A stretch of DNA of 64,000 bases. It comes from Embleya scabrispora DSM 41855 (lineage in GTDB: Bacteria; Actinomycetota; Actinomycetes; Streptomycetales; Streptomycetaceae). The stretch spans positions 1-64,000 of the forward strand of contig NZ_KB889662.1 in NCBI RefSeq assembly GCF_000372745.1. The letters are read 5' to 3'. The translations under genes and the position numbers were made by a program. A model generated the notes under the pieces. It was given only the letters and a program-made list of their open reading frames with translations. It was not told the origin of the DNA and searched no databases. Positions 32,834-48,184 of the stretch are shown here, piece after piece. How positions within the stretch are numbered: position 1 is the stretch's first letter; the number at the start of each line of letters is the position of its first letter.

Positions 32834-34246
32834 TCACCTGGGTCGGGAGATCTCCACGTTCTCCAGCACACCCAGCGCGTCGGGCACCAGGACCGCCGCC
32901 GAGTAGTACGCCGTGACCAGGTAGGAGATCAGCGCCTGCTCGTTGATACCCATGAAACGCACCGACAGGCCGGGCTGGTACTCGTCCGGCAGCCCGGTCT
33001 GATGCAGACCCACGACACCCTGGTCGTCCTCACCCGTACGCAGTACCAGAATCGAACTGGTGCGCGCCTCGGAGATCGGGATCTTGTTGCACGGGAAGAT
33101 CGGTACGCCGCGCCAGGCCGGGATCTGGTTGCCGCCCACATCCACCGTGGTCGGGTACAGGCCGAGCCGACTGCACTCGCGGCCGAACGCGGCGATGGTG
33201 CGCGGGTGGGCCAGGAACAGCCGCGAGCCGCGCCGGCGACTGAGCAGTTCGTCCATGTCGTCCGGCGTCGGCGGGCCGGCCTGGGCCTGGATCCGCTGTT
33301 CGTAGTCCGCGTTGTGCAGCAGACCGAACTCGGGGTTGTTGATCAGCTCGTGTTCCTGCCGCTCGCGCAACGCCTCGATGGTCAGTCGCAGCTGCTGCTC
33401 GATCTGATCCATCGGGTGGTTGTACAGGTCGGCCACCCGGCTGTGCACCCGCAGCACGGTCTGGGCCGCACTCAACTCGTACTCGCGCGGGTGGAGTTCG
33501 TAGTCCACGAAGCTGCCCGGCAGCACCGCCTCGCCGTGATGGCCGGCGGACATCGGGATCTCCGCCTCGCCCCTCGCGTTCTGCGGGCGGGCGCTGCTCT
33601 CGGCGTATTCCGCGAGGTGCTCGCGCAGGCTGTCGGCGTGCAGCCCGTCGAACGCGTCCCTGGGCAGCTCCAGCACGATCACCGAAGTGGCCGCCGTGGC
33701 CGTGTAGTCCCACGACGATTGACGGTCGACGAGCATCTTCTCGCCGAAGTGGTCACCGTCGCCGTGCAGCCCGAGCGAGGTGCGATCGCCGTAGGGGCCC
33801 ACCCCGGATTTGGCGATCTTGCCGTGCACGACCAGGACCACCCGGTCGTTCGGCTCGCCCATCGTCGCGAGCGTCTCCCCCGCCGCGTATTCCCGGCGTA
33901 CGAAGCGGTCCGCCAGCGTGCGCAGCACCTCGTCGTCCGCGAACCCGCGCAGCGGAGCGAGTTCGCACAACTCCGCCGGAATCACCCGGACTTCGGATCC
34001 GGTCTGGACGAACTGCACGCGCCCGTCGCCGATCCGGTAACTCAGCCGCCGGTTGACCCGATACGTACCACCCGACACCTGGACCCACGGCAACATCTTC
34101 AGCAGCCACCGCGACGTGATGTCCTGCATCTGCGGGACCGTCTTGGTGGTGGTCGCGAGATTTCGCGCCGCCGCCGTCGCAAGGCTCGAACGAGCCTGCG
34201 TGTCCCGGGCTTCACTTTCCGTGCCGGCCCCAGCATCGATCGACAA
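32834..34246 (-). CDS. Family 2B encapsulin shell protein (with cNMP-binding insert)
   Basis: A 470-residue protein from TTG 34246, preceded by a strong AGGGGAGG site that decides the start. The N-terminal [46 protein letters not shown] and the C-terminal half ([20 protein letters not shown]...[17 protein letters not shown]...[20 protein letters not shown]) are the HK97-fold shell of family 2 encapsulins. A cyclic-nucleotide-binding-like domain (about residues 95-205, [35 protein letters not shown]) is inserted, which defines 2B. Such shells enclose an enzyme loaded through a disordered extension. No usual cargo (terpene cyclase, polyprenyl synthase, cysteine desulfurase) is adjacent. The upstream neighbour is allantoicase, 203 bases away. 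Confidence 0.88.
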
Positions 34247-34449: not shown

Positions 34450-35520
34450 TCAGCCGTTCCGGAAAGGTGCCGGCGCCGGCTGGTTCGGGGTGTCGAAACG
34501 CTTTCGAAGGGCCGTCAGGCCGGCCTCGGTCAGCCGGCCCGGCAGCCGCAGTCGGGCCACCCCACCGTCCGGGAAGACCTCGATGCGGACGTGCGTGACG
34601 GGCCGCACGTCGGCGAGTCGAAAGCGGTGCCGGGTGTCCGGCTGGACCCGGGTGCGTGGCAACAGGTCGAACCACACGTCCGGGTCCTCGCCCGCGTCGC
34701 TGCCGACGAGCGCGACCCAACCAGGCGCATTGCCCAAGTAGTTGTCGATGTCGATCTCCGCGGCCAGGATCTCGGCCTGCCCGACCAGGCGCACCCGCAC
34801 CCAGTCGTGCCCGTCGTCGCGCCGGCGCCGGGTCTCCCAGCCCTCGCCCATCACCCGCGAGCGGCCCGGCGCGTTGAGGTTGTGCGGCGAGGAGAAGTAG
34901 CGGTCACTGGCCGCCTCGGCCACCGCACCGTACTCCTGCGCGGCCAGATCCACGGTGAGCCCGTCCAGCCAGGCCGGATCCGGCACCGCCTCGCCGTATA
35001 CACGCAGCCGGGCCACTCCGCCGTCCGGGAAGATGTTCAGCCGCACGTGGGTGAACCGCCGCGCGGCGGTGATCGCGAACGGGTGCGCCGTATCGCCCTT
35101 CAGGTCGGTGCGCGCGACGATCGTGGTCCACCGCACGGCCGGGTCGAGCAGTTCCTCCACCGAGGGTGTGCCGGGTACGGCCGCGGCCTCCACCGAGGCA
35201 CTCGGCGGGTAGTTGCCGGTGAAGAACGCGGTGTCCACCACGATCCCGCGCAGCACGCCGGGCACGCCGAGCCGGATGATCGCCCAGTCGTGCGCGTCCG
35301 CGTCGGGATGCGGGTGCTCGGCGGAGGCACCGCGCCGGCGGCGGGTCTCCCATCCGTCCATGATCTGACCCTTGGGCCCGAACGTATGCGGGGTGAAGAC
35401 CGGCGGTTCGGCCCTGAGCAGGTTCTCCTTCTCGGCGAACCACTCGTCGTTGGCGGCCACCACGCCTGCTCCGAGGGCGCGCGCGGCGAGGTTGACGTAC
35501 TCGGTGAAATCGGCGGTCAC
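34450..35520 (-). CDS. alc: Allantoicase
   Basis: A 356-residue enzyme with the expected two-fold internal repeat. DGWETRRRR near residue 54 recurs as EGWETRRRR near 228. THVRLNIFPDGGVARLRVYG recurs as THVRIEVFPDGGVARLRLPG. Each half is a jelly-roll allantoicase domain. It hydrolyses allantoate to ureidoglycolate and urea. GTG start. It lies 109 bases downstream of allantoinase on the same strand and is the last metabolic gene of the hyi-glxR-(gcl)-glxK-allB-alc run. Confidence 0.93.
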   Translation of the reverse strand: MTADFTEYVNLAARALGAGVVAANDEWFAEKENLLRAEPPVFTPHTFGPKGQIMDGWETRRRRGASAEHPHPDADAHDWAIIRLGVPGVLRGIVVDTAFFTGNYPPSASVEAAAVPGTPSVEELLDPAVRWTTIVARTDLKGDTAHPFAITAARRFTHVRLNIFPDGGVARLRVYGEAVPDPAWLDGLTVDLAAQEYGAVAEAASDRYFSSPHNLNAPGRSRVMGEGWETRRRRDDGHDWVRVRLVGQAEILAAEIDIDNYLGNAPGWVALVGSDAGEDPDVWFDLLPRTRVQPDTRHRFRLADVRPVTHVRIEVFPDGGVARLRLPGRLTEAGLTALRKRFDTPNQPAPAPFRNG

Positions 35521-35629: not shown

Positions 35630-36973
35630 TCACCGGGCGGTCCGCGTCCGGTCCAGAAGCCGCCCGCGCGGGCTGCCGTGCACGTCCACGGGCGCGCCCG
35701 CGAGCCACGTGGTGCGCACCGCGCCGGTGAGCGAACGGCCCGCGTACGGGGTGACCGGGTTGCGGTGGTGCAGTCCGGCCGGGTCCACGGTGAACTCCGC
35801 GTCCGGGTCGAACGCGACCAGGTCGGCGTCGTATCCGGGCGCGATCGCGCCCTTGCGAGCCAGGCCGACCAGTCGGGCCGGACCGGCGGACATCAGCGCG
35901 ACCACGTCGGCCAGCGCGAAGCCGCGGGCCCGGGCCTCGGTCCACACCGTGCTCAGGCCCAGTTGCAGCGACGCGATGCCGCCCCAGGCCGCGGCGAAGT
36001 CGCCGACGTCCAGCCGTTTGAGGTCGGCGGTACACGGCGAGTGGTCGGAGACCACGGCGGCGAACGAACCCGCCCGGATCCCGCGCCACAGCCGGTCGCG
36101 GTTGTCCCGGGAACGAATCGGCGGGCAACACTTGAACGCGGTGTCACCCGCCGGGACACCCTCGGCGACCAGGGTCAGGTAGTGCGGGCAGGTCTCGGCG
36201 GTGACCGCGACCCCGGCCGCGCGGGCGGCGTCCAGGAGCGGCAACACATCGGCCGAGGACACGTGCAGGACGTGTACGCGGGCACCGACGCGTCCGGCCG
36301 TGTCGAGCAGTTGCCCCACCGCGACGGTCTCGGCCGCGTCGGGCCGCGATGCCAGGAAGTCGGCGTACGCCCGGCCGGGCACCTGCGGCGCGGCGTCCAG
36401 CACGTGCGGCGCCTCGGCGTGGATGATCGCCAGTGCTCCGAGCCGGGCCTGCTCGGTCAGCGCCTCGGCCAGTCGGGCCGCGTCCACGTGCGGGAACTCG
36501 TCGACGCCGGAGGGCGCGAGGAAACTTTTGAAGCCGTACACGCCGGCCCGATACAGGGACTCCAATCGGTCGGTGTTGCCCGGAATCGCGCCGCCCCAGA
36601 AACCCACGTCCACGTACACCCGGCCGCGCGCGACCTCCTGCTTGACCCGCAGCGCATCGAGGGTGACGGTGGCCGGGATCGAGTTCAGCGGCATGTCGAT
36701 CAGCGTGGTGACGCCGCCGGCCGCCGCGGCCCGGGTCGCGGTGGTGAAGCCCTCCCACGCGGTGCGGCCCGGCTCGTTGATGTGTACGTGGGTGTCCACC
36801 AGGCCGGGCAGCAGGGCGAGTTCACCCAGGTCCTCGACCGGTGCGCCGTGGGCGGTGCGGTACGGCAGCACATCCGTGATCCGGTCGCCGGCCACGGCCA
36901 CGTCGGCCGGCCGCTCGCCGGTCGGGGTGAACACCCGGCGCGAGCGCAGTACGAGAGTGGGGGTGCGGGTCAC
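35630..36973 (-). CDS. allB: Allantoinase (cyclic amidohydrolase)
   Basis: A 447-residue cyclic amidohydrolase. Metal and active-site motifs are complete: [10 protein letters not shown], the carboxylated-lysine site [23 protein letters not shown] and the Asp of VVSDHSPCT. It opens the hydantoin ring of allantoin to give allantoate. The GTG start overlaps the stop of glycerate kinase (GTGA), proving tight coupling. The length is normal for allantoinases. Confidence 0.94.
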
Positions 36974-38115
36974 GACGCGTCCTCCGGATCCGCTCGGTGC
37001 GCCTGCTCGGCCCGATCGGCCGGCAGGTCCCGGGCCAGTAGCTCGCCCGCGTCCTCGACGAGTTCGCCCGCGCGGGTCATGCTGTCCGCGCCGAGGTCGG
37101 CCAACGCATAGGCCGCCACGATGCCGGCCGCGTCGAGCTGAGCCCGGCTCAACTCGACGCGGCCGCAGACCACCGCCACGGGTACGCCCCGTTCCCGGGC
37201 GGCGGCGGCCACCCCCGCCGGTGCCTTGCCGTGCAGGGTCTGCCGGTCCAGGCTGCCCTCCCCGGTGACCACGAGCTCGGCCCCGTCGAGCAGTTCGTCG
37301 AAGCCGAGGAGTTCGAGCAGCAGGCCGATGCCGGGCCGCACGCTCGCGTCGAGAAACGCCAACGCGCCGTAGCCGGCCCCGCCCGCGGCTCCCGCGCCGG
37401 GCACGTCGGCCCATTCCGGCCCGACCACCTCGGCCCAGCGCGCGAGCGCGGCGTGCAATACGCGCACATCCTGCGGCGTGGCGCCCTTCTGCGGCCCGTA
37501 CACCGCCGCGGCCCCCTTCGGACCGAGCAGCGGATTGTCCACGTCCGAGGCGATCACCACCTCGACGCCGGTCAAGCGGGCCGCCGGGTCGTCCCGCTCG
37601 ATCCGGTCCAGCCGCAGCAGTGCGGCGCCGCCGGGAGGCAACTCCGCGCCCGCCGCGTCCAGCAGCCGAGCCCCGAGGGCGCGGGCCGGCCCCGAGCCGC
37701 CGTCGGTGGAGGCCGCGCCGCCCAGTCCGAGCACGATCCGGGTGCAGCCCAGCTCCAGCGCCCGGGCGATCAGCTCGCCCACACCGGTGGTGTCCGCCGT
37801 CAACGGCGCGGGCCCGGCCGGGAGCAGCGCGAGTCCCGAGGACTGGGCCAGTTCGACCACGGCGGTGCGACCACGCACGGCCGGCGCCGCGTCCACCGGC
37901 CGCCCGATGGGGCCGGTGACCCGCGCCGGGATCCGCGCGAAGCCGGCCGCCACCGCCGCGTCCACGGTGCCCTCGCCGCCGTCGGCGATCGGCAACATCC
38001 GTACGTCCGCGTCCGGACGGACCCGCCGGATCGCGGCACCGATCCCGGCTGCGGCCTGCACCGCGGTCAACGTGCCCTTGAACTTGTCGGGGGCCAGGAC
38101 GACGACCGGTCCCAT
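36970..38115 (-). CDS. glxK: Glycerate kinase (GlxK family)
   Basis: A 381-residue kinase beginning [21 protein letters not shown], the family hallmark. It shows [12 protein letters not shown] near residue 42, [13 protein letters not shown] near 130, [25 protein letters not shown] near 190 and [16 protein letters not shown] near 285. It phosphorylates D-glycerate, the end step of the gcl-glxR route from glyoxylate. It lies just downstream of the gcl remnant and overlaps allantoinase by four bases. Confidence 0.93.
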
Positions 38116-38151
38116 GTACCGCTCCTTCGGGTGGGCTGTCCAGAGGCACAG

Positions 38152-38397
38152 TCAACTACGTGGCCGCCGCTCCCGGAGGGATCGACGGGGCCGGCGACCG
38201 CCCGGTGACGCGGGCGCGACACCGGTGATGGGATCAGCGTCCCCCGGCGGCATCGGGTGCTCGATGCCGCCGACCGCCTCCAGTGCGGCGTAGAGGGGCA
38301 GGATCGCCGCGCCGGGGCAGCCGAACGCGGTGTCCACGCCTTCGGACTTGAGCACCTCCACGACGGCGTTCATGACCGGTACACGACGCGGTGCCAT
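38152..38397 (-). pseudogene. gcl: Glyoxylate carboligase remnant (N-terminus only)
   Basis: The 81-codon frame starts at an ATG that shares a base with the glxR stop (TGATG). Its first ~47 residues, VPVMNAVVEVLKSEGVDTAFGCPGAAILPLYAALEAVGGIEH, are the N-terminus of glyoxylate carboligase, a thiamine-diphosphate enzyme of about 590 residues. After that the sequence turns into Pro/Arg-rich non-homologous codons and stops. The pyrophosphate- and cofactor-binding domains are absent from the 280 bases before glycerate kinase, so more than 90% of the gene has been lost. Gcl joins two glyoxylates into tartronate semialdehyde, the substrate of the gene directly upstream. Confidence 0.85.
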
Positions 38398-39317
38398 CAG
38401 TTGTCTCCCTGCTTCGAACCACTGGCGACGGGGCGGCCGTTGAGCCGTTCCAGGCCGAGCAGCAGACCGCAGTGGTCCAGGCCGCCGCCGCCCTGGGCGC
38501 GCAGGGATGCCACCAGTCGCGCGGTGAGGCCGGCGAGCGGCAGCACGAGGCCGAACTCGCGGGCCGACTCGGTGACGATGCCCATGTCCTTGTGGTGCAG
38601 GTCGATGCGGAACCCGGGCTTGAAGTCGCGGTCGCGCATCACCCGCGCCTTGCGATCCAGGACCGTGCTGCCGGCCAGGCCGCCGGCGAGCACTCTCAGA
38701 CCGGCCTCGGTGTCCACACCCGCGCGTTCGAGGAACAGCAGCGCCTCGGCGACGAGTTGGATGTTGCCGGCGACGATCAGCTGGTTCGCCGCCTTGACCG
38801 TCTGGCCGGCGCCGTGCGGGCCGACGTGTATGACGGTCTTGCCGAGCACCTCGAACAGGGGCAGCGCGGCGGCGAAGTCCGCCGCCTCACCGCCGACCAT
38901 GACGGACAACACCGCCTCGATCGCGCCCGCCTCGCCGCCGCTGACCGGCGCGTCCAATACCCGCAGCTCGCGCTCGGCGCCGGCCTCGGCCACCGCGATC
39001 GAAGTGCCGGGCTTGATCGAACTCATGTCGATCACGAGGGTGCCGGGCTTGACGGTGCGCAATACGCCGCCGCCGCCGAACATCACCTTCTCGACGTGTG
39101 GGTCGGCCGGGACCATGGTGATCACCACGTCCGCGTCGCGCACCGCCTCGGCGATGGTCGCCGCGCCCTTGCCGCCGAGCGCGATCAGCCGGTCGATCGC
39201 GTCCCGTTCCAGGTCGAACCCGGTCACCTCGTGGCCGGCCCGAACCAGGTGGGCGGCCATCGGGCCACCCATGATGCCGAGACCGACGAATGCGATCCTC
39301 TTGCGTACGCCGGTCAT
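38397..39317 (-). CDS. glxR: 2-hydroxy-3-oxopropionate (tartronate semialdehyde) reductase
   Basis: A 306-residue beta-hydroxyacid dehydrogenase. The N-terminal RIAFVGLGIMGGPMAAHLVRAGH is the Rossmann motif, and DAPVSGGEAGA near residue 120 and GAGQTVKAANQ near 168 (catalytic Lys) are diagnostic. It reduces tartronate semialdehyde to D-glycerate. GGGGAGGGG lies before the ATG, which overlaps the hyi stop (ATGA). The gene is intact although the gcl gene that should supply its substrate is not. Confidence 0.93.
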   Translation of the reverse strand: MTGVRKRIAFVGLGIMGGPMAAHLVRAGHEVTGFDLERDAIDRLIALGGKGAATIAEAVRDADVVITMVPADPHVEKVMFGGGGVLRTVKPGTLVIDMSSIKPGTSIAVAEAGAERELRVLDAPVSGGEAGAIEAVLSVMVGGEAADFAAALPLFEVLGKTVIHVGPHGAGQTVKAANQLIVAGNIQLVAEALLFLERAGVDTEAGLRVLAGGLAGSTVLDRKARVMRDRDFKPGFRIDLHHKDMGIVTESAREFGLVLPLAGLTARLVASLRAQGGGGLDHCGLLLGLERLNGRPVASGSKQGDN

Positions 39318-40156
39318 CCGGCCCCTCCCCGGGTGCCGCGCAACTCGCGCGGGAGCCAGCCGAAGCTGTCCGCGCTCGGGCCGACGGGCTTGTATTCGAG
39401 GCCGACGCGCCCGGTGTATCCGGCGGCCACGAGTCGGCGGAACAGGTCTGCGAAGTCCGTTCCGCCGGTGCCGGGTTGCCCCCGTCCAGGGCTGTCGGCG
39501 AGCTGCACGTGGCCGAACCGGTCGGCGTGGCTGTCGATCACGGCGGTGAGGTCCTCGCCGTTGCGGGCGAGGTGGTACAGGTCGCACAGGAAGGCCGCGT
39601 TGCCCAGGCCCGTCTCGGCGTTGACCTTGTCCACGACGGCCACCGCGTCGGCGGCGGTGACCAGCGGGTAGCGCGGGTTCTCCGGTGCGCCGAGTGCCTC
39701 GATCAGCACGACCGCGCCGATTCGGTGCGCGGCCTGGGCAGCCAACGTCAGGTTCTCCAGGGCCAGTTCGTCCTGTGTCTTCGGCTCCACGCCGTCCTGC
39801 CGGTTGCCGTACAGCGCGTTCAGCGCACGGCAGCCCAGGCGCTCGGCGAAGCCGGTCGCGACGGCGATGTTGTCCCGGAAGCGCGCGGAATCGGAGGGCC
39901 GGGACAGCAGGCCCCGGTCGCCGGCGGGCATGTCACCGGCGTCGAAGTTCAGGCCGACCAGATCGACGCCCGCGTCGCGGATGGCCCGGGAGAGCGCATC
40001 CAGGTCGGCGTCGGCGGGGATCGGGCCGGCGAAGGGCCACCACAGCTCGATCTCGGTGAAGCCGGCCGACGCGGCGGCAGCGGGCCGTTCCAGGAGCGGG
40101 AGTTCGGTGAAGAGGATCGAGAGATTGATGTCGAAGCGCAGTCCACGAGCGCTCAC
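39314..40156 (-). CDS. hyi: Hydroxypyruvate isomerase family protein
   Basis: A 280-residue TIM-barrel sugar isomerase from GTG 40156 with GAGGTG upstream. It shows FDINLSILFTELPLLERPAAAASAGFTEIELWWPF and the metal-site segments VVLIEALGAPENP, CDLYHLARNGEDL and HVQLADSPGRGQPGTG with terminal GLEYKP. It interconverts hydroxypyruvate and tartronate semialdehyde. It is the first gene of the operon, and three palindromes lie within 90 bases upstream of its start. Confidence 0.9.
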   Translation of the reverse strand: MSARGLRFDINLSILFTELPLLERPAAAASAGFTEIELWWPFAGPIPADADLDALSRAIRDAGVDLVGLNFDAGDMPAGDRGLLSRPSDSARFRDNIAVATGFAERLGCRALNALYGNRQDGVEPKTQDELALENLTLAAQAAHRIGAVVLIEALGAPENPRYPLVTAADAVAVVDKVNAETGLGNAAFLCDLYHLARNGEDLTAVIDSHADRFGHVQLADSPGRGQPGTGGTDFADLFRRLVAAGYTGRVGLEYKPVGPSADSFGWLPRELRGTRGGAG

Positions 40157-46564: not shown

Positions 46565-48184
46565 TCAGTCGAGGAGTTCGCATCCCGGCAGGGTGAGGAA
46601 GTCGACGAACTCCTCGGCGAGAGCCACCGTGAGGAACAGGTCACGGGCGGCCGTCCAGCGGCCCGCCTCGAACCGAGCGTCGCCGATCTCCTCGCGCAGT
46701 GCGCCCAGTTCCTCGACGACCAGGCGTCGGACCAGGTCCGCGGTCACCTTCTCGCCGGTGTCCGAGAGCAGCACGCCGTTGTTGATCCACTGCCATACCT
46801 GGGACCGGGAGATCTCCGCGGTCGCCACGTCCTCCATCAGGCCGAAGACGCCGACCGCGCCGTATCCGCGCAGCCACGCCTCCAGGTAGCGCAGCCCGAC
46901 CCCGACCGCCGCGTGCAGTCCGGCGCCGGTCGGCGACCCGTCCGCGGACGCCACGTCCAGGAGCTGATCCGCCGTCACCTCGACGTCGTCCCGGGTGCGT
47001 TCGATCTGATTCGGCCGATCGCCGAGCACCGCGTCGAACGCCTCGCGGCAGACCGGCACCAGGTCCGGGTGGGCCACCCACGAGCCGTCGAATCCGTCGC
47101 CGGCCTCGCGGTCCTTGTCGTCCCGCACCTTGGTCAGCGCCGCCGCGTTGGCCGCGGCGTCCCGCCGGGAAGGGATCACCGCCGCCATCCCGCCGATCGC
47201 ATGCGCCCCGCGCCGATGGCAGGTGCGCACGAGCAGTTCGGTGTACGCGCGCATGAACGGCGCGGTCATGGTGACCGCGTTGCGGTCCGGCAACACGAAC
47301 GCGTCCCCCGCGTCGCGGAAGTTCTTCACGATGCTGAACAGGTAGTCCCAGCGACCCGCGTTCAGGCCCGACGCGTGCTCGCGCAGTTCGTACAGAATCT
47401 CGTCCATCTCGAACGCGGCCGTGACCGTCTCGATCAGCACCGTGGCGCGGATGGTGCCGCGCGGGATGTCGAGCAGATCCTGGGCATGCCCGAACACGTC
47501 GTTCCACAACCGCGCTTCGAGGTGGCTCTCGATCTTCGGCAGGTAGAAGTACGGGCCCAGGCCCCGATCGAGCAGGCGGGCCGCGTTGTGGAAGAAGTAC
47601 AGCCCGAAGTCGACCAGCGCACCGGCGGCCGGCGCCCCGTCGACCAGGATGTGCCGTTCGTCCAGGTGCCAGCCGCGCGGGCGCATCACCACGGTCGCCA
47701 GTTCCTCGTCCGGGCGCAGCCGGTAGGTCTTTCCCTCGGCGGTGGAGAAGTCGATCCGCCGGTCGTAGGCGTCGATCAGGTTGAGCTGATGCGCGACGAC
47801 GTTGTGCCAGGTGGGCGCCGAGGCGTCCTCGAAGTCGGCGAGCCAGATCCGGGCACCCGAGTTGAGCGCGTTGATCGTCATCTTGCGATCCGCCGGCCCG
47901 GTGATCTCCACCCGCCGGTCGCGCAGCGCGGGCGGCGCCTCGGCCACCCGCCAGTCGGCGGCGCGCACGTCGGCGGTCTCCGGCAGGAAGTCCAGCCGCC
48001 CGGTACGCGCGATCTCCTCGCGTCGGGCCCGGCGCAGGTCGAGCAACGCGTCGCGCCGGCCGCCGAACCTGCGCTGCAGGCTCGCCACGAAACGCAGCGC
48101 CTCGGTGGTGAGCACCTCGTCCGCTCGCGGCACGGAGCCGCCGGTCGCCGTGCCGTGCTTGACCACGATGGCCGGTGCGCTCAT
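46565..48184 (-). CDS. aceB: Malate synthase A
   Basis: A 539-residue enzyme of normal length for malate synthase A. ATVLIETVTAAFEMDEILYELREHASGLNAGRWDYLFSIVKNFR carries the family signature H-x-x-G-L-N-x-G-x-W-D-Y. Catalytic Arg and acidic metal ligands lie in ADFEDASAPTW and the segment just quoted. It condenses glyoxylate with acetyl-CoA to malate. AAGGAGAG precedes the ATG. It is divergent from the IclR-type regulator, and two palindromes lie between them. With gcl broken it is the only complete glyoxylate-consuming gene visible. Confidence 0.95.
   Translation of the reverse strand: MSAPAIVVKHGTATGGSVPRADEVLTTEALRFVASLQRRFGGRRDALLDLRRARREEIARTGRLDFLPETADVRAADWRVAEAPPALRDRRVEITGPADRKMTINALNSGARIWLADFEDASAPTWHNVVAHQLNLIDAYDRRIDFSTAEGKTYRLRPDEELATVVMRPRGWHLDERHILVDGAPAAGALVDFGLYFFHNAARLLDRGLGPYFYLPKIESHLEARLWNDVFGHAQDLLDIPRGTIRATVLIETVTAAFEMDEILYELREHASGLNAGRWDYLFSIVKNFRDAGDAFVLPDRNAVTMTAPFMRAYTELLVRTCHRRGAHAIGGMAAVIPSRRDAAANAAALTKVRDDKDREAGDGFDGSWVAHPDLVPVCREAFDAVLGDRPNQIERTRDDVEVTADQLLDVASADGSPTGAGLHAAVGVGLRYLEAWLRGYGAVGVFGLMEDVATAEISRSQVWQWINNGVLLSDTGEKVTADLVRRLVVEELGALREEIGDARFEAGRWTAARDLFLTVALAEEFVDFLTLPGCELLD

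Follow-up and report, generated by a model that had tools for sequence, protein, structure and literature searches.

Has Embleya scabrispora DSM 41855 lost its glyoxylate carboligase (Gcl), and if so, how recently, and what kind of enzyme was it? In a 64,000-nucleotide stretch of the genome (contig NZ_KB889662.1, positions 1 to 64,000; hereafter the window), hyi, glxR and glxK lie beside allantoin genes on the reverse strand, and the frame between glxR and glxK is only 81 codons long. We compared this locus with those of the congeners, by which we mean the three other genomes of the genus compared (G001, G002 and G003), and with G004, which belongs to another genus of the same family; G000 is the window genome. 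The features discussed are as follows.

34450..35520 (-): allantoicase (TIGR02961 386.8 bits, cut-off 277.9)
35630..36973 (-): allB, allantoinase (TIGR03178 569.6 bits, cut-off 357.85), with a 4-bp overlap with the end of glxK
36970..38115 (-): glxK, glycerate kinase, intact (TIGR00045 350.5 bits, cut-off 168.45)
38116..38255 (-): sequence of the former spacer between gcl and glxK, lacking the first 16-17 bases relative to G001 and G002, from congener comparison
38152..38397 (-): 81-codon frame made up of the gcl stub and former spacer sequence that is now read in frame, from comparison and profile matches
38197..38249 (-): hairpin element of the spacer, of which 11 of 13 pairs form in the window
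38254..38257 (-): deletion junction, placed between 38256 and 38255 on the assumption that the congeners represent the ancestor
38256..38397 (-): surviving gcl 5' end, 47 codons plus one base, aligned with G001-G004
38397..39317 (-): glxR, tartronate semialdehyde reductase, intact (TIGR01505 391.3 bits, cut-off 340.75)
39314..40156 (-): hyi, hydroxypyruvate isomerase, intact (TIGR03234 287.7 bits; start codon picked by alignment)
46565..48181 (-): malate synthase A, candidate remaining glyoxylate sink (TIGR01344 798.5 bits, cut-off 594.5; start provisional)

The beginning of the frame is recognized by both available Gcl profiles. Residues 5-48 matched the NF008431 glyoxylate carboligase profile at positions 3-46 of 591 (E 3.2e-13) and residues 7-48 matched TIGR01504 at positions 4-45 of 589 (E 1.4e-10). 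The scores, 49.1 bits for NF008431 (cut-off 791) and 40.4 bits for TIGR01504 (cut-off 711.2), are too low for the stub to count as a functional glyoxylate carboligase. The original start codon and the upstream GGGAGACAACTG are kept, the stub ATG and the glxR stop overlap by 1 bp, and 36 bases separate the end of the stub from the glxK ATG. The initial annotation, made from the sequence alone, had described about 47 residues of the Gcl N-terminus downstream of glxR, a glxK start 36 bases past the stub, and intact neighbouring genes. The profiles, the identity to the congeners and the coordinates bear this out, and glxR, hyi and glxK are all open and recognized by profiles; hyi scores below its TIGR03234 cut-off of 353.45, a shortfall shared by every one of the 41 genomes searched. 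Nearby genes encode xanthine dehydrogenase, uricase, 8-oxoguanine deaminase, allantoinase, allantoicase and malate synthase A, each scoring above its own NCBIfam cut-off. The purine-degradation genes also surround a Family 2B encapsulin shell protein with a cyclic-nucleotide-binding domain (32834-34246, (-); NF041163 763 bits, cut-off 400), and a stand-alone 157-residue protein with an allophanate hydrolase C-terminal domain (PF21986; 46033-46506, (-)) is encoded near the malate synthase and allantoin genes.

Comparison with the same operon in close relatives, which the initial annotation had proposed as a check, identified an intact homologue at the same place in each of them. Full-length gcl lies between glxR and glxK in G001, G002, G003 and G004, at 571, 571, 578 and 573 codons, so that no second genome with the stub occurs among the three other genomes of the genus. 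Residues 1-47 of the stub are 100, 91, 89 and 85% identical to the gcl start in these four genomes. The remainder of the frame had been described as non-homologous sequence. Instead, the tail matches the gcl-glxK spacer of G001, G002 and G003 at 67, 74 and 67% over 33, 19 and 30 codons, and has no match in the G004 spacer; the codon and DNA alignments led us to reject a foreign or inserted origin of the tail. Measured from the gcl start to a common spacer anchor, the net deletion is 1,590, 1,591 and 1,693 bp relative to G001, G002 and G003. Against G001 and G002 the lost segment extends from gene base 143 to 16-17 bases past the stop and removes 524 of 571 codons, in agreement with the earlier estimate of more than 500. 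The two flanks have at most 1-2 exact bases in common at the junction, which makes recombination between repeats and assembly collapse at a repeat both unlikely.

We regard it as very probable that the strain recently lost a full-length gcl-type gene through a single deletion, leaving a presumably inactive stub in an operon that still makes Hyi, GlxR and GlxK, with glyoxylate predicted to pass mainly to malate synthase A. On this account the complete gene stood between glxR and glxK until recently, and the congener comparison shows that one deletion of ~1.59 kb fused its first 47 codons to the spacer. Translation now continues into the spacer and ends at a chance stop 36 bases before glxK. The resulting 81-residue product would be inactive, as nearly all of the thiamine-diphosphate-binding and catalytic parts are gone.

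The substitutions in the surviving codons bear on the age of the loss. Codons 1-47 differ from those of G001 by 13 synonymous bases and by no amino-acid change. Where G001, G002 and G003 agree against the window, all seven changes assigned to the window branch are synonymous (four more are ambiguous), compared with a synonymous share of 27% expected for random single substitutions in these codons with no transition bias. This implies that constraint on the gene persisted through most of the branch. On sequence grounds the deletion thus looks recent, as had been proposed, although a stub kept for its own sake would give the same pattern. In the rest of the operon, hyi, glxR and glxK retain open frames that are under constraint, with dN/dS of 0.14-0.37 in comparisons with G000. 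For hyi, pairs with G000 gave 0.364-0.367 and other pairs 0.197-0.315; the corresponding ranges were 0.220-0.283 and 0.260-0.294 for glxR, and 0.137-0.226 and 0.145-0.268 for glxK, for which G003 contributes 69 codons only. The slightly raised hyi values with G000 could reflect an early relaxation of the remaining operon.

A second full-length gcl elsewhere in the genome, a search also proposed in the initial annotation, was not found in the draft assembly (11,390,904 bases or 11.39 Mb, 190 contigs, completeness 98.34%). Searching with TIGR01504 returned eight stretches, one of which is the stub, and none exceeded the cut-off of 711.2. The best match other than the stub, at 378.8 bits, was considered as a second gcl and rejected, as it is an acetolactate synthase (PRK07789 1050 bits, cut-off 881). 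The congener protein likewise gave nothing in the window genome at E up to 1e-140.

We also surveyed how gcl, hyi and glxR occur together. In the window genome and 40 relatives, full gcl is present in 21 of 41 genomes (the copy of G037 is in two pieces on two contigs), glxR in 24 (E up to 1e-85) and hyi in 23 (E up to 1e-50). Both hyi and glxR occur in 22 genomes, 21 of which have gcl; the sole exception is the window genome. None of the other 19 genomes that are devoid of gcl has both genes, with glxR only in G020 and G025 and hyi only in G019. A further 80 loci were picked by similarity of their glxR to that of the window. Using Val-type and Glu-type for the residue at position 51 of E. coli Gcl (see below), the fetched flank contained a Val-type gcl in 41 of these loci, a Glu-type gcl in one (L143) and a gcl cut by the locus end in nine. 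Of the remaining 29, 26 gave no match at E up to 1e-10, one had an unrelated enzyme in this place and two had degenerate copies; all 29 genomes without an intact gcl near glxR carry a gcl above the cut-off elsewhere, which in G047 is in two pieces in different frames. Among these non-random samples, the combination of hyi and glxR without gcl was met in the window genome only.

In nine of the loci, from seven Kitasatospora and two Streptomyces (L073, L075, L076, L078, L079, L080, L082, L101 and L105), glxK comes next after glxR without an intervening gcl, and the spacers between the two genes contain no gcl remnant at E up to 1. We rejected them as a precedent for a strain devoid of Gcl, since gcl is present elsewhere in their genomes. 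In the genome of L082, Streptomyces sp. CB01881, the Val-type gcl at G047:C1:10543193-10545021 appears as two overlapping matches in different frames, possibly a second broken gcl or a sequencing error. Streptomyces nigrescens HEK616 (L148, 6888-8096) has a 402-residue Gcl-like frame behind hyi-glxR in which most of the middle domain is missing and VRDAEA replaces VRHEEG. The same shortened gene in Streptomyces endophytica HNM0140 (L118, 6888-8080) is in pieces in different frames and is apparently decaying; both of these genomes have a full Val-type gcl elsewhere.

Three explanations would remove or alter the loss described above. The assembler may have joined the two flanks of a gcl that is whole in the strain, and the draft state, with 190 contigs and an estimated contamination of 3.37%, is compatible with such an error. 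However, the junction lies inside a contig of 192,990 bases, the flanks provide no repeat to collapse given how few exact bases they share, and the missing 1.6 kb is absent from the rest of the assembly, making an artefact very unlikely. The gene could instead reside elsewhere in the strain, in a gap between contigs or on a replicon that was not sequenced. Separation of gcl from glxR is frequent in Streptomyces and Kitasatospora, and all 29 surveyed genomes without an intact gcl near glxR do have one; the completeness, moreover, is 98.34% and not 100%. Against this, no match above the cut-off and none to the congener protein was obtained in the window genome, and in the congeners the gene is the operon copy, so that we judge a displaced gcl highly improbable. 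The stub itself might be retained as a small protein or leader peptide, for example for translational coupling between glxR and glxK, consistent with its preserved ribosome-binding region and start, its lack of amino-acid change relative to G001 and a frame that continues to 36 bases before glxK. A merely recent deletion predicts equal conservation, however, the other genomes of the genus (3/3) have the full gene, and the tail is former non-coding spacer; we consider retention extremely unlikely.

The nature of the enzyme that was lost was judged from the congeners' gene. Its protein aligns collinearly with Gcl and shares 52% identity with the Val-type Gcl of G018. The G001 protein passes NF008431 (887.4 bits, cut-off 791) and fails TIGR01504 (678.4 bits, cut-off 711.2), and six Gcl sequences are its closest matches among solved structures. 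Where E. coli Gcl has residue 51, the aligned chains 7ct6, 8i05 and 2pan have Val and the congener has Glu. One report describes Val51 as a hallmark of glyoxylate carboligases as a whole and takes it to indicate that the mechanism differs (PMC3534367). We found Glu at this position in G001-G003 and in all 41 loci of this type, comprising 13 among relatives and 28 from a class survey (L017-L029, L164-L191); the residue was called by script in 38 loci and by reading the alignment in three. glxR lies directly upstream on the same strand in 41 of 41 Glu-type loci, and hyi lies upstream of glxR in all 13 from relatives. The degenerate copies of L148 and L118 have no Glu at the Val51 position. The congener protein was matched in 75 of 394 genomes drawn from the class; the 47 other than the Glu-type genomes gave matches at 50-56% identity, and the two that were checked at this residue both have Val. 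In our sample, 68 alignment columns are fixed differently between the Val and Glu types.

In a tree of 33 rows with acetolactate synthase as the outgroup, from which two wrongly oriented acetolactate synthase rows and six near-duplicates had been dropped, 18 Glu-type rows (93/80) and eight Val-type rows (99/98) each grouped together and jointly formed one clade (100/100); the program warned of possible attraction between the long acetolactate synthase and Val branches. Sampling was limited to ten Val-type and 18 Glu-type rows from this bacterial class or relatives, with no E. coli row. Trees that included wrongly oriented acetolactate synthase rows did not clearly unite the Glu type (two changes with 59 rows, three of them reversed; 37/0 with 41 rows, two of them reversed). 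With the two types as sister groups, Val is the derived state by parsimony.

From genetic context and kinship we infer that the Glu type catalyses the same reaction as Gcl. The initial annotation had stated that Gcl makes tartronate semialdehyde; this stands for Gcl itself and is presumed, rather than known, for the congeners' Glu51-type relative, whose scores fall on either side of the two cut-offs (678 below 711 for TIGR01504, 887 above 791 for NF008431). The literature matches listed, mostly from outside subscription journals, hold no account or assay of a Glu-type Gcl. There is about an even chance that the lost gene belonged to a clade that keeps the ancestral catalytic Glu of thiamine-diphosphate enzymes, is sister to the Val51 enzymes and performs the same reaction in hyi-glxR operons of many actinobacteria. 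If true, Glu would not be incompatible with Gcl chemistry, the view that Gcl works without the canonical glutamate being one that rests on Val51 enzymes, and the window genome would be a natural knockout of the Glu-type enzyme with no backup. The competing explanation is that another thiamine-diphosphate carboligase of the same operon family was lost, in which case the loss says little about glyoxylate. The Glu at a site where Val is described as family-wide in PMC3534367, the score below the TIGR01504 cut-off and the 68 differently fixed columns all point this way. We nevertheless think this doubtful, as the protein passes NF008431, has Gcl sequences as its six nearest solved structures, is the sister of Val-type Gcl against acetolactate synthase, and is encoded directly behind glxR in every Glu-type locus and behind hyi-glxR in every such relative.

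The spacer that was fused to the Glu-type gcl remnant contains an inverted repeat, and the deletion ends immediately before it. In G001-G003 (L156, L157, L158) the repeat has 13-base arms and a loop ending in TCG(T/C)GCCCG, and the nine Kitasatospora-type glxR-glxK spacers have a hairpin of equal arm length with a similar loop. Pairing holds in 97.9% of cells over 11 distinct rows, and changes on both sides occur in 15 cells (0 of 500 shuffles were as high for either), for a structure that was derived from the same sequences. Pairs with double changes (4; 159 of 500 shuffles) and extra pair types (8; 462 of 500) showed no excess over shuffles, and sliding the partners lowered pairing to 42-64%. 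The Kitasatospora hairpin pattern occurs once in seven of those nine genomes and is absent from the other two and from G000-G003; the reversed pattern was unmatched. In the window two of the 13 pairs are broken and the 5' arm is damaged beside the junction. The fold z-score is -0.9 in the window, no better than shuffles, compared with -3.0 in G001, -5.6 in G002 and -5.4 in L080. Rfam gave no match in window positions 37950-38450, and a match in L079 (6860-7420) was rejected as chance, at 21 bits against a gathering score of 99. No promoter-like or terminator-like site was found in window positions 38000-38500. The hairpin might have played a part in the deletion, or might act in processing or regulation of glxK.

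If the stub is inactive, Hyi, GlxR and GlxK would at most convert hydroxypyruvate or tartronate semialdehyde of other origin into glycerate and 2-phosphoglycerate. The main outlet for purine-derived glyoxylate would then be malate synthase A, the likely remaining glyoxylate sink, whose gene lies 8 kb away. As malate synthase A requires acetyl-CoA, allantoin is predicted to be usable for nitrogen, but poorly or not at all as the sole carbon source. In P. aeruginosa, one study describes gcl, hyi and glxR insertion mutants for which allantoin as the only carbon source does not support growth, although glucose plus allantoin does, and a GlxR that favours tartronate semialdehyde over hydroxypyruvate (PMC12694930). 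By analogy, the window strain should lose allantoin as a carbon source and keep it as a nitrogen source. For isocitrate lyase, the genome gave nothing above the cut-off (best 48.5 bits against 275.9), so that malate synthase may serve purine-derived glyoxylate rather than the glyoxylate shunt. A classical ureidoglycolate lyase (PF04115) was not found in the genome either, which weighs against this account, since glyoxylate may not be released by the classical route, or at all.

Judged from sequence, the loss itself looks like an ordinary recent deletion pseudogene, one deletion in one draft genome. The strain offers a natural test of Hyi, GlxR and GlxK without the carboligase, given an operon that is otherwise complete and no backup that we could find. 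The Glu-type clade is a better lead than the gene loss, as it bears on whether the missing Glu is needed for Gcl chemistry or only correlated with it.

Compared with known systems, the locus resembles other pseudogenes formed by internal deletion, with a cut from inside the gene to just past its stop, a fused 3' flank and open neighbouring genes; it has nothing unusual apart from the lack of a detected backup gene. The congener protein is like Gcl (TIGR01504 and NF008431; 2pan, 8i05, 7ct6) in being collinear over nearly its whole length, and differs in having Glu at the E. coli Val51 position and in scoring under the TIGR01504 cut-off. The operon shares with the gcl-hyi-glxR-glxK cluster of E. 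coli and P. aeruginosa (PA1498-PA1502) the same enzyme set by purine and allantoin genes. In contrast to those clusters, gcl here is reduced to 47 codons while hyi, glxR and glxK are intact, and the congeners' Gcl is of the Glu type, whereas the P. aeruginosa Gcl is given as 74% identical to the E. coli enzyme in PMC12694930.
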